A stretch of DNA of 24,612 nt. Source: a virus. Under the pieces are notes generated by a model. The model saw nothing but the letters and a program-made list of their open reading frames with translations, searched no databases and was not told the origin of the DNA. Position numbers and translations under genes: made by a program. The stretch lies in the IMG/VR virus record IMGVR_UViG_3300032116_001260, positions 1 through 24,612 of that record; one strand, 5' to 3'. Below, piece by piece: positions 4,298 through 24,369 of this stretch. Position 1 is the stretch's first letter. Each line of letters starts with the position of its first letter.

Positions 4298-4894
4298 ATG
4301 GAAAAAAGAAAAGTAGTTAAGTGTGTGATAGATGAGGAAGGCCGTTTGGGTATTACAGCGATGGGCTTAGTAGATAGCCCTGCTATTGAAGAGAATTGGA
4401 TTGCACTATCAAAGATGCAGCTGAGCGCATTGAATGACGAACGCCGTATGCTATACGGTGCTGCCCTCATCCCGGATAAAGAGATATTGCGCTATGATGA
4501 AAATGGTGAGCCATACTACGTGTACTTTGAAAAGGCCACCGTGCAAGCCATCGCGCATCAGTTCTTTAAAAAGAATCTGCAACACACAACCAACTTGCAA
4601 CACGAAATACCTGTGACGGGTGTGACGGTTGTTGAGTCATGGATTAAGGAAGGCAAGCAGGATAAGTCTATGCAACTTGGACTATCTGAACTACCAGACG
4701 GCACATGGTTCATCGGTACGCATGTCGATGATGACAGCGTGTGGCAAGATGTAAAAGAGGGTAAGGTAAAAGGGTATAGCATTGAAGGCTTTTTCAACGA
4801 AGTTGGTGTAGCGATGAGCGGCGTTAAGAACTACGAGGCTGAATTGCTGCTAGAGATTGACCAACTATTAAGCACTGTAAATCCATCCAAATGA
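4298..4894 (+). CDS. XkdF-like prohead maturation protease
   Basis: A 198-residue protein with the signature of the XkdF / S78-like phage serine protease family: LVDSPAI near residue 24, a block with GAALIPDKEILRYDENGE (54-71), NLQHEIP with His102, VVESWI (111-116), GTWFIGTHV (135-143) and VKGYSIEGFF with Ser161. His102 and Ser161 are the likely catalytic pair by analogy with the prohead protease fold. Such enzymes trim scaffold and capsid proteins during head maturation, which fits the scaffold-like and capsid genes 2.4-3 kb downstream. The ATG follows an A-rich leader (AAAACAAAAACAAA). The end overlaps the start of the subtilase gene by 4 bases (ATGA), so the two proteases are translationally coupled. 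Confidence 0.85.
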   Translation: MEKRKVVKCVIDEEGRLGITAMGLVDSPAIEENWIALSKMQLSALNDERRMLYGAALIPDKEILRYDENGEPYYVYFEKATVQAIAHQFFKKNLQHTTNLQHEIPVTGVTVVESWIKEGKQDKSMQLGLSELPDGTWFIGTHVDDDSVWQDVKEGKVKGYSIEGFFNEVGVAMSGVKNYEAELLLEIDQLLSTVNPSK

Positions 4895-6942
4895 AAATAA
4901 ACGCGGTAAAGTTCAAGGACAAGAAATCCTTTGACAAAAACAAAACAAAAAGCAATGTGCTCTCGGTCTTTGAACCGTTCGGCATTGTAGTCTTTGAAGA
5001 TGATAAACACGTTGTGCCCGATGCGGCAAAGGTGTTGCAGGTGAACGAGGTTGATAGATCACTAGATAAAATATCTAGCGGTCTTGCAATCTGCATCACT
5101 AGCAATCTGAAATCTGCCGTTGAGTTCTTAGAACTAAAGCAGGTAGAGATTAAGGAAGTGTTTGAGGCAACCAACACACTGTTTGTAGAAGTGCCTGCAT
5201 TCGCTAGCTTTGATGAGTTCTATGAGTCGCTCATGCGCACTAAGTTATTCATTAGTGTTGAGCCTGATTATATCCAACCATTCGAGGCTAATGCTGAATT
5301 GTCAATCCCTGCACAGTGGCATCTTCAAAACTTCCGTGCTACCGAGGCATGGTCACTTATTCCCGCAAATGCATACGGTGAAGTGGCTGTTTTGGACGTA
5401 GCGTGTGAAGTTGATCACGAGGATTTGGTAGGCACTATAAGTGACCTGTCATGGAACTGTGCATATGACACAGCAGATGTGCGACCCATTAGCCCATATG
5501 AGAATCACGGCACACCATGTAGCGGATTGATTTGCGCTAAGACCAGCAATGACATCGGAGTGAGTTCGATTGGTAACAACAAACTCAAAGTGCAGTTTTT
5601 GCACATAGCAATGAACTCAAACAGCGGCGGTGGTTTCTTTACATCGGACACAATCGTAACACGCGCAGTCAACAAGGCAATCGCTAACCCTAACTGCCTT
5701 GCAATTTCCATGAGTTGGGGCGGTGGCAACACATATACCATGTTTGCAAACGCACTCACCGCGGCTAAGAACACTGGTCGTGGTGGAAAAGGTATTTGTG
5801 TCTTTGCATCTAGTGGCAACAACTACTCATCGACCGTAAACATTAACCCCGCAGGATTGCCGATGGTGCATGCCGTTGGTGCATCTGCTCAAAACAACAC
5901 ACGCGCAGGATTCTCTAACTATGGTACCAAACTTTTTGCTGCTGCTCCGGGTGTGGCTACACCAACAACAGACCGCATGGGCGCAAATGGCTACAAGGCT
6001 GATTCAAACTATACGAATTTCAGCGGAACATCTGCTGCTTGTCCTGTTATGGCTGGTTGTGCTGCTGCTATTATACTTGCTAATCCTACACTAACCGAAA
6101 AGCAAGTGACCGACATCATCGCTACTACTGCGTTAAAGAGTGGCGGGTATGTTTATGATGCAAATGGTAAGTCATTAGAACTCGGTTACGGTGTTGTTGA
6201 CTTGTATTCTGCAATCGTGAAGGCTCAAAGCGGCGAGCTACCACCACCACCACCACCATCTGAACTTAGCAACCTATACGGCACAGTAAGTTCACCCGCA
6301 TCTGCTAACCAGGGGGCGCAGGTAACAGTATCTTACACGGTGCAACTTGACAAAGTGCGTGATGCTGACACAGTCACAAACATTGCGCTGGAGTTCATCC
6401 GCCCTGATGGATCTAAGTCAACATTCTACACTGGCAATGTGACCATCTTAAAAGGCCAACTGTTGTTTACAGGTACGCTCCCATACGTAGTGCCTAACAA
6501 CGTGACGGGAATAGGTAAATTCAACCTATACATTGATGTTGCAGGTTCGGTAAATGAAAGCAATGAAAGCGATAACATGGCAACTACGTCTATTAACGTA
6601 ATCGCTCCTGTGCCTGTGGGTAATTATGACTTAGAATTGAATTCAACAGGTTACACTTGGCTAGCACCTGACCGTGTGCGCATAGGTACACGCATAACAA
6701 ATCGTGGTGCTGCAACAGTGACTAGCTACAAATTAAAATGGGAGTTTGACGGACGCACTGGATTTTGGGATAGACCTGTAACATTGAATCCGGGACAAAG
6801 TAACGGGTCAGGCAACGTGATGTATCCGACTGTAAACACAAAGTTTCCTGCAACATTCAAAGTTAGCGTGGTAAGTGTGAACGGACAGCCTGACAATAAT
6901 CCCGCGAATGACGTAGTCACTACGATAGTTCAGGCAATGTGA
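4891..6942 (+). CDS. Subtilisin-like (S8) serine protease with prodomain-like N-terminus and two CARDB-like domains
   Basis: A 683-residue protein. Residues 1-130 look like an I9-type prodomain ending in VEPDYIQPF. The peptidase domain (about 135-445) has all catalytic positions: Asp169 in VAVLDVACEVDHEDL, His206 in NHGTPCSG, the oxyanion Asn310 in FASSGNN and Ser381 in SGTSAACPVMAG. A proline linker (451-456) leads to two Ig-like repeats (about 460-575 and 580-683) with the CARDB pattern, including NESNESDN and the second copy's QPDNNPANDVV. No signal peptide is seen, so it probably acts in the cell or in the virion. It is coupled to the XkdF-type protease upstream. A role in capsid maturation, or as a virion-borne protease acting on the host surface, is inference. 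The fold assignment itself is firm. Confidence 0.9.
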   Translation: MKINAVKFKDKKSFDKNKTKSNVLSVFEPFGIVVFEDDKHVVPDAAKVLQVNEVDRSLDKISSGLAICITSNLKSAVEFLELKQVEIKEVFEATNTLFVEVPAFASFDEFYESLMRTKLFISVEPDYIQPFEANAELSIPAQWHLQNFRATEAWSLIPANAYGEVAVLDVACEVDHEDLVGTISDLSWNCAYDTADVRPISPYENHGTPCSGLICAKTSNDIGVSSIGNNKLKVQFLHIAMNSNSGGGFFTSDTIVTRAVNKAIANPNCLAISMSWGGGNTYTMFANALTAAKNTGRGGKGICVFASSGNNYSSTVNINPAGLPMVHAVGASAQNNTRAGFSNYGTKLFAAAPGVATPTTDRMGANGYKADSNYTNFSGTSAACPVMAGCAAAIILANPTLTEKQVTDIIATTALKSGGYVYDANGKSLELGYGVVDLYSAIVKAQSGELPPPPPPSELSNLYGTVSSPASANQGAQVTVSYTVQLDKVRDADTVTNIALEFIRPDGSKSTFYTGNVTILKGQLLFTGTLPYVVPNNVTGIGKFNLYIDVAGSVNESNESDNMATTSINVIAPVPVGNYDLELNSTGYTWLAPDRVRIGTRITNRGAATVTSYKLKWEFDGRTGFWDRPVTLNPGQSNGSGNVMYPTVNTKFPATFKVSVVSVNGQPDNNPANDVVTTIVQAM

Positions 6943-22760: not shown

Positions 22761-23014
22761 GCTTTCATATTTTGAATTCGTTGCTCATACAATGCATCTA
22801 ACTCATCATCAGTAGTTGGTACAATTAATTGCAAACCAAATTCTGCAACAGCCAATCTTATTCCTTCGCATGCCTCATAATCTTCCTGTTGAATTAGGCC
22901 ATACAGAATTTCATTGTATTCATATATGTCAGCTCCATTAGCAATTTCGCCTTTAGTAATGTCATATATTTCTTTAACTCTTTCGACCATCTCAGTATTC
23001 GTTTTGTTGTTCAA
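22757..23014 (-). CDS. Small acidic helical protein, 85 residues
   Basis: MNNKTNTEMVERVKEIYDIT, then ADIYEYNEILYGLIQQEDYE and DDELDALYEQRIQNMKA. Mostly helical and acidic, no recognised family. Its start overlaps the end of the next-upstream gene by 23 bases and its end overlaps the 53-residue gene by 4 bases, so it is part of the same translated string behind the replication genes. Confidence 0.55.
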   Translation of the reverse strand: MNNKTNTEMVERVKEIYDITKGEIANGADIYEYNEILYGLIQQEDYEACEGIRLAVAEFGLQLIVPTTDDELDALYEQRIQNMKA

Positions 23015-23684
23015 TCAATTCGCGGTAACGCTCCATGCGGAACTCTGTGAACTGGTAAGGCTTGTTCTTGTACACTCTGAATCGCATGTCGTTGTCCCAT
23101 TGTGGCAACGCATCATACTCACGCATCAATGCTATCTCAAGTTGTGAAGGCTGTTCACGTGTTGGCTCTTGTGCCGGTGTCTGTAACATTTTAGCATCCA
23201 TTTTTGTTACGACATCTTGCATGGCTTCGGTCATCTTTGGGTGGTTGAACAGTTCGTATATGTTGTTGTTGCTTTGCTTATCGATGTTTATACGCTCACT
23301 AATGGCTTGTCTCTTTGACATAAACTTTTTGATCCACTCAAAGAACACCTGCCCATCAATGCGATTGTACAAAGGGCCGAACTCACCCTTCATTGCCATA
23401 CGAAAACAAACTTGCAGCTCATCCACTCGCAGGTAGTAATAATCCTCAAGGATTAATTCTGCTGTAAGTGCAAGTTGTTGTGCATTCATTGGTTGTTGAA
23501 GGTTAAAGTATTGCTGACATGCGTCCATCATTGCCACCATGATGTTGACAGTGGCTTGCTGGCTTTTGTCTTTACGAATTTCCGCTAACGTCGGTGATGT
23601 CTTCGTAGCCAAAATCTCGTGCAATTTCACTTCTGTACTGTTTGCGGAACTGCTCAAGTTCACTAGCGCGTTTTTCTCGTTCAT
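22992..23684 (-). CDS. Conserved replication-module protein, 230 residues
   Basis: After a Ser/Asn-rich start comes PTLAEIRKDKSQQATVNIMV (31-50), a helix with NLQQPMNAQQLALTAELILE, then DYYYLRVDELQVCFRMAMKG, EFGPLYNRIDGQVFFEWIKK and FMSKRQAI. This pattern (helical, 'YYYLxxDELxxxFxxAxxGxFGxxY') is one I associate with a Bacteroidota phage and mobile-element family (DUF6633-like) found after replication genes. A helicase-loader-like role is suggested by its place, not proved. The first 113 bases overlap the replication gene in another frame. Confidence 0.55.
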   Translation of the reverse strand: MNEKNALVNLSSSANSTEVKLHEILATKTSPTLAEIRKDKSQQATVNIMVAMMDACQQYFNLQQPMNAQQLALTAELILEDYYYLRVDELQVCFRMAMKGEFGPLYNRIDGQVFFEWIKKFMSKRQAISERINIDKQSNNNIYELFNHPKMTEAMQDVVTKMDAKMLQTPAQEPTREQPSQLEIALMREYDALPQWDNDMRFRVYKNKPYQFTEFRMERYRELIEQQNEY

Positions 23685-24369
23685 TTTGAATTACGTTTTT
23701 TGGTTTTTGATTTTTTACTTTATCCCATTCTTTGCGCATCCAGTTGCGCACTGTGCTTTGCCAATCCTTCATCGGAACTTTACCAACTATCCATCCGTTG
23801 GCCTGATAGTGATCCATAAAGGTGCGAGCGAAATTAACTAACTGGACTTCATTCAGGAAGTTTTGACCTTTTGTATTCAACTCACCCATAAAATTATAAA
23901 TATCATTTTCTGATGGTGGTGTAAACACCACTCTATTGTTTCTTGGTTTCTTTGTTTCTTGGTTTCTTTGTTTATCTATAGGGGCAGTGGTGGTGTCAAT
24001 GCTGATATCAATGCCGTTGCTATGCTGTATCAATGCCGTATCCAATGCCGTGTGCAGTGCTGTGGCTTTTTTGCTACGGCATATTGCTATTAAAGTACTG
24101 CTATATTGGTTCTTAGATTCTTTGATTATTTCAATGAATCCCCACTTGCATAAATCATCAAGTGCTGCAAGATAGGTTCTCTTGTTTCCAATGTGCAGAC
24201 CTTCCATAGTGGCATAGGTAGGCAATCCAAACTGCTCTTTCCATCCTAAACGATTATTTAGTTCAATGATCCACATGAACAAAGCAGTGTGCTGGCACTT
24301 TACCTCTGAATGCTCAAAGGCAAAATCAAACCACTTCCGAGAAAGGTCGTAACCGTTATTCGTTTTCAT
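23572..24369 (-). CDS. Winged-helix replication initiator-like protein
   Basis: A 265-residue protein. The N-terminal part (1-95) has the plan of a winged-helix replication protein: NGYDLSRKWFDFAFEHSEVK, HTALFMWIIELNNRLGWKEQ (27-46), GLPTYATMEGLHIGNKRTYL (48-67) and CKWGFIEIIKESKNQYSS. A linker (about 101-148) is rich in Thr/Ile/Asp and contains the repeats TALHTALDTALI and KQRNQETKKPRN, both produced by DNA repeats. The C-terminal part has GWIVGKVPMKDWQSTVRNWM (192-211), a known end motif of phage DnaD/O-like replication proteins. Likely an origin-binding or helicase-loading factor at the head of the early operon. Confidence 0.7.
   Translation of the reverse strand: MKTNNGYDLSRKWFDFAFEHSEVKCQHTALFMWIIELNNRLGWKEQFGLPTYATMEGLHIGNKRTYLAALDDLCKWGFIEIIKESKNQYSSTLIAICRSKKATALHTALDTALIQHSNGIDISIDTTTAPIDKQRNQETKKPRNNRVVFTPPSENDIYNFMGELNTKGQNFLNEVQLVNFARTFMDHYQANGWIVGKVPMKDWQSTVRNWMRKEWDKVKNQKPKNVIQNEREKRASELEQFRKQYRSEIARDFGYEDITDVSGNS
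23938..23973. repeat. 16-bp tandem repeat, AT-rich, inside the replication gene
   Basis: GTTTCTTGGTTTCTTT occurs twice in a row (23938-23953 and 23954-23969) followed by GTTT. The 16-bp unit is not a multiple of three, so the copies read in different frames (NQETKK, NN...). It adjoins the iteron-like repeats at 23995-24063 and could be the AT-rich part of an origin. Confidence 0.75.
23995..24063. repeat. Iteron-like repeat array, about six copies, inside the replication gene
   Basis: Units related to ATCAATGCCGT start at 23995, 24007, 24018, 24029, 24041 and 24053, spaced 11-12 bases, about one DNA turn. Two are identical (24007-24017, 24029-24039), one has a single change (24041-24051, TCCAATGCCGT), the others are degenerate. 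They code for TALHTALDTALI and the following residues. Position and phasing fit an origin-binding site of the protein that they encode. Confidence 0.6.

Follow-up and report, generated by a model that had tools for sequence, protein, structure and literature searches.

An iteron-bearing region within a phage initiator gene as a probable replication origin

The repeat-rich region inside the putative initiator gene of a 24.6-kb virus record (IMG/VR record IMGVR_UViG_3300032116_001260, positions 1 to 24,612, referred to here as the window) very probably serves as the phage's origin of replication, embedded in the gene for its own initiator in a manner resembling both phage lambda and the pSK41 Rep system. 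This assignment, made by sequence analysis, is reached because the same layout, spelled with different repeat letters, recurs in over 100 relatives. A candidate origin within the initiator gene had been proposed in a first-pass annotation of the DNA, and the proposal is supported by the comparison of relatives and by the replication-related profiles that homologues match. Searches of a paper library found nothing describing the origins of this Bacteroidota phage group.

The window carries portal, terminase and recombination genes. Among its phage structural genes lies a subtilase gene (Peptidase_S8, 4e-32) at 4891-6942, which is adjoined by an XkdF-like protease gene at 4298-4894. The initiator gene is an open reading frame of 265 amino acids on the minus strand (23572..24369), whose product is described as an O-like or DnaD-like winged-helix initiator without a Pfam domain of its own. 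In a PHROG profile search the protein matches phrog_15768 at 2.9e-16 and shows a weak match (0.003) to phrog_1408, 'replication initiation protein'. No O-like profile was matched among the PHROG profiles, nor were the DnaD-like and replisome-organizer profiles phrog_2514, phrog_4880 and phrog_391, from which the protein is too diverged.

An AlphaFold model places a winged-helix DNA-binding domain at residues 5-100 (24070..24357, minus strand), which is the likely iteron-binding domain, and a helical C-terminal domain with its tail at residues 154-253 (23611..23910, minus strand), which contains the motif GW.VGK..MKDW...VRNW and may form the contact with a loader or helicase. The two are joined by a disordered linker of residues 101-146 (23932..24069, minus strand), encoded by the iterons and the A-rich tract. 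The model confidence (pLDDT) is under 50 at residues 100-146, the stretch that coincides with the repeats, and the earlier placement of both repeat sets within the initiator coding sequence, in a predicted linker between the winged helix and the C-terminal domain, is thereby upheld. The tail of the initiator is interchangeable and exists in no fewer than three forms (NEREKR, ADSIAKAN and FDNVAHY), which are paired with different C-terminal variants. When the winged helix was compared with RepA_N initiator domains using VIA-align, Z scores of 8.7 (4pql), 8.1 (4pt7) and 7.5 (5kbj) were obtained, and the scores for Zur (10.1) and LexA (8.9) are equal to or above these. The modelled winged helix is a common fold that resembles ordinary repressors too, and this counts against the origin reading. 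A structure search with the initiator gave nothing specific past the winged helix, and no PDB sequence relatives were found for the whole protein or for its C-terminal domain.

The next gene (22992..23684, minus strand) is a conserved companion assigned to phrog_35728 and a possible helicase loader, which overlaps the 3' end of the initiator gene by 113 bp (23572-23684) in another frame. Its product aligns with the lambda P loader (9oa1_Y) at Z 5.7 over 75 residues, a score tied with those of unrelated Rubisco activase and AAA+ proteins, and the structural likeness to lambda P is just a hint.

Six iterons with the consensus ACRGCATTGAT occupy 23994..24063 on the minus strand. Their GCAYWG cores are located at 24060, 24048, 24036, 24025, 24014 and 24002, such that the spacing along the coding (minus) strand is 12, 12, 11, 11 and 12 bp. 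Iterons 4 and 6 are diverged, and after the sixth comes CCACTGCCC, a degenerate seventh unit. Tandem Repeats Finder reports an 11-bp array at 23996-24051 with 4.9 copies, together with a 34-bp superperiod of that array (score 92), which along with the core positions bears out the initial description of about six units every 11-12 bases at 23995-24063. Directly 3' of the iterons in the direction of the gene, on the side of the downstream gene, is an A-rich tract (AAACAAAGAAACCAAGAAACAAAGAAACCAAGAAAC; 23938..23973, minus strand), the putative DNA-unwinding element. On the coding strand, which is the A-rich one, the 43 nt of the tract comprise 29 A, 7 C, 5 G and 2 T. This tract had been annotated as a 16-bp AT-rich tandem repeat, and such an array is indeed found by Tandem Repeats Finder (23936-23973, 2.4 copies, 100% match), but it is better described as five AAAC words, starting at 23973, 23965, 23957, 23949 and 23941, that are spaced exactly 8 bp apart.

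The repeats exceed what the encoded protein would demand. When the same protein was recoded synonymously, the 20 near-identical 9-mer pairs of the iteron zone compared with a mean of 2.6, and the 41 pairs of the A-rich zone with 1.4, neither value being reached in 500 recodings. Among 1227 sliding stretches of the window, the iteron-zone pair value was reached only at the initiator locus. A milder test, in which synonymous codons were shuffled within each zone, reached the observed values in 16 and 21 of 500 trials. Synonymous recoding is also exceeded by the repeats of initiator types B, C1 and D, described below; the CATATG units of type C2 were not significant by the 9-mer pair statistic, though their 11-bp spacing is regular. 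Across 14 genes, each compared with synonymous recodings, pairing at 8/16 bp was significant (p < 0.01) in nine, whilst pairing at 11/12 bp was individually significant (p < 0.05) in only eight, and a control spacing of 13/14 also scored in two, the window's gene being one of them. The type-A word ACGGCATTGA is read as TAL and as NGI/HSI, that is, in two codon frames, and the core words of types B, D and C3 occur in all three. The type-A iteron zone has a low synonymous diversity (0.20 against a mean of 0.44, with L044 left out of these statistics), and five of 82 windows are equally low. That the 16-bp unit does not keep to the codon frame had led to the suggestion that selection at the DNA level is plausible, a view strengthened by the recoding results and by spacings of 11 and 8 bp, neither of which is a multiple of three.

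Scans of IMG/VR that used either the initiator or the next gene as query yielded about 115 distinct initiator genes. These fall into several N-terminal types: A and B, which are related winged helices; C1, C2 and C3, which are DUF1376-like, below the Pfam cut-off; and D, which is DUF6291 (E 5e-19). Each type has its own linker repeat, in which the distance between cores is 11 or 12 bp or else roughly two helical turns (22 bp). In type A the unit is ACRGCATTGAT, with GCAYTG cores 12 or 22 bp apart, and in type B it is AAAGCACTTGAC at a spacing of 11/12. Type C1 has CCACGGCAT at 11-13 bp, mostly 12, and types C2 and C3 have CATATG or CATATC at 11 bp, or at 22 and 33 bp in C2, the palindromic CATATG cores being confined to C2/C3 relatives. 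Type D has an AAGCA-centred unit every 11 bp. Iterons are kept in the type-A relatives. Among the relatives as a whole there are up to about 13 units, and copy number differs by whole units in L038 and L072. In the relatives' sequences that were read, the repeats are followed by the A-rich tract, the iterons coming first wherever both were read. While the C-terminal variants c1, c2 and c3 have been exchanged between types A and B, each N-terminal type keeps its own kind of repeat. This covariation of iteron and binding domain is no proof of binding by itself, because the two are physically contiguous. The type-B initiator was found on no plasmid.

Retention of repeats in relatives despite a changed protein linker, which had been put forward as a check on the origin, is seen in types A, B, C1, C2, C3 and D, in 12 Bacteroidota genomes and in the isolated phage Danklef. 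Relatives with no linker repeats and with replication starting elsewhere had been named as evidence that would speak against it, and one relative lacking the repeats was found: in the type-A relative L043 (2019-2754) the whole repeat linker has been lost cleanly and in frame, joining the winged helix to the C-terminal domain, and the iteron array is absent from all 4.6 kb of that contig. Hence the array may be dispensable, or the contig may be defective, misassembled or using another origin. In another contig (L044:5001-5372) the initiator is cut short, its sequence passing straight from iteron 5 into the part that codes for the C-terminal region, which suggests either a deletion or a chimeric contig. 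One more initiator-like family (WKIAEDKQFSSSEIATYFALLNYCNNLNWLNPFVCHFEYVCQT...; L265, L273, L281 and L294) has linker repeats of its own and the same 8-bp AAAC tract. An IMG/VR scan for the pattern (AAACNNNN)4AAAC found 11/12-bp repeats just upstream of 28 of 44 non-uniform tracts, many of these 28 belonging to close type-A relatives, compared with one of 28 uniform microsatellites.

A single genome scan recovered 12 homologues in Bacteroidota genomes, among them Sphingobacterium, Pedobacter, Dyadobacter, Pontibacter, Pelobium, Lacinutrix, Chitinophagaceae and others. All 12 have linker tandem repeats, mostly of 11-12 bp or double that length (23), together with A-rich repeats in the same order, and the repeat letters vary from ACRGCATTGA-like to AAAGCACTTGAC to CGCGGAAACAG. 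Of 65 AAAC spacings in 14 genes, 36 are exactly 8 bp, and six of the genes have four or more such spacings in a row. A DUF6291 gene in a Bacteroidota genome (L370:734 onward) contains 4.4 copies of the 11-bp unit AAGCAAATGCT followed by AATGTA repeats, a sequence arrangement which suggests that origin binding may be a general role of DUF6291. The AAAC-tract pattern was rejected as an origin signature in its own right after it was applied to 296 Bacteroidota genomes; the tract alone is non-specific in chromosomes because most matches are microsatellite-like and a backwards control pattern matches many too.

The link to replication comes largely through homologues. Danklef is an isolated Polaribacter phage whose homologue, annotated 'transcriptional regulator', is 38% identical to the window protein over the N-terminal half and has a different C-terminal domain. 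In its linker the 12-bp unit CAAAGCACTAGA is repeated 8.6 times and a 16-bp A-rich unit 3.7 times, again with the iterons ahead of the A-rich tract. The Danklef protein matches DnaD-like loader (1.9e-11), O-like (phrog_391, 1.5e-10) and replisome organizer (7.6e-10) profiles. Moreover, genes from Vibrio and Flavonifractor phages that share the C-terminal motif match replication-initiation profiles and adjoin DnaB-like helicase or primase/helicase genes. GC skew, which had been suggested as a check, gave a mixed outcome. In the window it is uninformative on origin position because the genes change strand near 15.5 kb. In Danklef the third-codon-position skew, calculated with the initiator gene left out, is lowest at 28.5 kb, adjacent to the gene at 29.0-29.9 kb, and the size of the swing has a permutation p of 0.026; in the all-base profile the minimum at 29.9 kb reflects the composition of the gene itself and moves to 25.9 kb once the gene is masked.

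The arrangement has precedents in several known systems. In lambda and Stx phages the origin lies in the middle of the O gene, with iterons and then an AT-rich tract towards P, the helicase loader (PMC7466680, PMC6022878). The window is similar in having in-gene iterons and an AT-rich tract on the downstream-gene side, but lambda has four to six iterons, each with an 18-bp inverted repeat, whereas the window has six direct 11-12-bp units and an 8-bp-phased AAAC tract. The window protein itself has no strong O-profile match, although its Danklef homologue has one. The Rep protein of pSK41 consists of an N-terminal binding domain, a central linker encoded by the origin with its Rep boxes, and a helical C-domain (PMC5703833). 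The window protein shares this domain layout with RepA_N initiators, and its winged helix aligns with theirs at Z 7.5-8.7, as it does equally well or better with Zur and LexA; the RepA_N Pfam domain is absent from it (Pfam search, E up to 1), and pSK41 has four Rep boxes and represents staphylococcal plasmids, in contrast to the Bacteroidota phages considered here. In SPP1, oriL is found within initiator gene 38 and is made up of direct repeats and an AT-rich unwinding element (PMC6316719), a parallel of architecture, and SPP1 differs in having a second origin. Finally, the DnaD-like and replisome-organizer proteins (phrog_2514, phrog_4880 and phrog_391) are matched by the Danklef homologue at 2e-11 to 8e-10.

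A mechanism can be proposed from this anatomy and from what is known of lambda O, SPP1 gp38 and pSK41 Rep (PMC7466680, PMC6022878, PMC6316719, PMC5703833). The winged helix would bind the six ACRGCATTGAT iterons, which are about one helical turn (11-12 bp) apart, so that initiator molecules would be aligned on one face of the DNA. Assembly of the initiator on the iterons would melt the adjacent A-rich tract, with its AAAC word every 8 bp. A DnaB-type helicase would then be recruited by the C-terminal domain acting with the protein from the overlapping next gene, leading to theta replication.

The repeats could in principle have another explanation, namely that a disordered linker grew by slippage, with selection if any acting on the protein, and that they have no function as DNA. 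The disorder of the linker, the whole-unit changes in copy number in L038 and L072, the fact that part of the type-A array stays in frame (TALHTALDTAL) and the loss of the linker in L043 all fit such a history. Neutral growth is nevertheless very unlikely, because the spacings are 11 and 8 bp, the words of most types fall in two or three codon frames, and the layout is common to different initiator types. DUF6291, the DUF1376-like domains and the A/B winged helix all share the spacing and the order, with iterons before the A-rich tract wherever both were read, and the repeats exceed synonymous recoding. An origin remains the preferred interpretation.

Two further possibilities accept that the protein binds the repeats. 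The sites might be operators, with the protein serving as a transcription regulator or as an autorepressor of its own gene, and replication starting elsewhere. Although the likeness of the winged helix to repressors and the 'transcriptional regulator' annotation in Danklef are in keeping with that role, sites in the middle of a gene are unusual for an operator, an A-rich tract comes after them, the profiles matched by homologues are those of replication proteins, and genes for a DnaB-like helicase or a primase/helicase are the neighbours in relatives that share the C-terminal domain, all of which makes regulation alone highly improbable. Alternatively, the region may be bound by the initiator without being the main origin, acting for instance as an incompatibility or copy-control site or as one of two origins. 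SPP1 offers a model for this, with its second origin oriR some 13 kb from the in-gene oriL (PMC6316719), and the array-free L043 points the same way. Against it, the type-A word ACRGCATTGA has 101 occurrences within the gene and four elsewhere in the 316 kb of type-A loci to which the count was confined, and the A-rich tract lies immediately adjacent; a secondary role of this kind is judged unlikely. The region is best regarded as the probable main origin.

Taken together, and more tentatively, the origin of these Bacteroidota phages might be viewed as an exchangeable cassette, composed of a DNA-binding domain, its cognate 11-12-bp iterons and an unwinding tract, fused to a common helicase-loading domain. 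DUF6291, the DUF1376-like domains and the unnamed A/B winged helix would then be alternative domains for origin binding, and the (AAACNNNN)5 tract might act as a phased ladder for single-strand recognition, something more than AT-rich DNA; this joint reading is possible though somewhat doubtful. What is new relative to known in-gene iteron origins is the exchangeable DNA-binding-domain-plus-iteron cassettes and the 8-bp-phased tract. The analysis provides origin predictions at base level, with an initiator, for a large and mostly uncultured set of Bacteroidota phages, and points to replication genes among those now annotated as unknown or as 'transcriptional regulator'. A role is also suggested for DUF6291 and the DUF1376-like domains. 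Moreover, the relatives form a natural set of matched pairs of binding domain and site, through which a recognition code, and the rules by which origins are exchanged, are open to testing.
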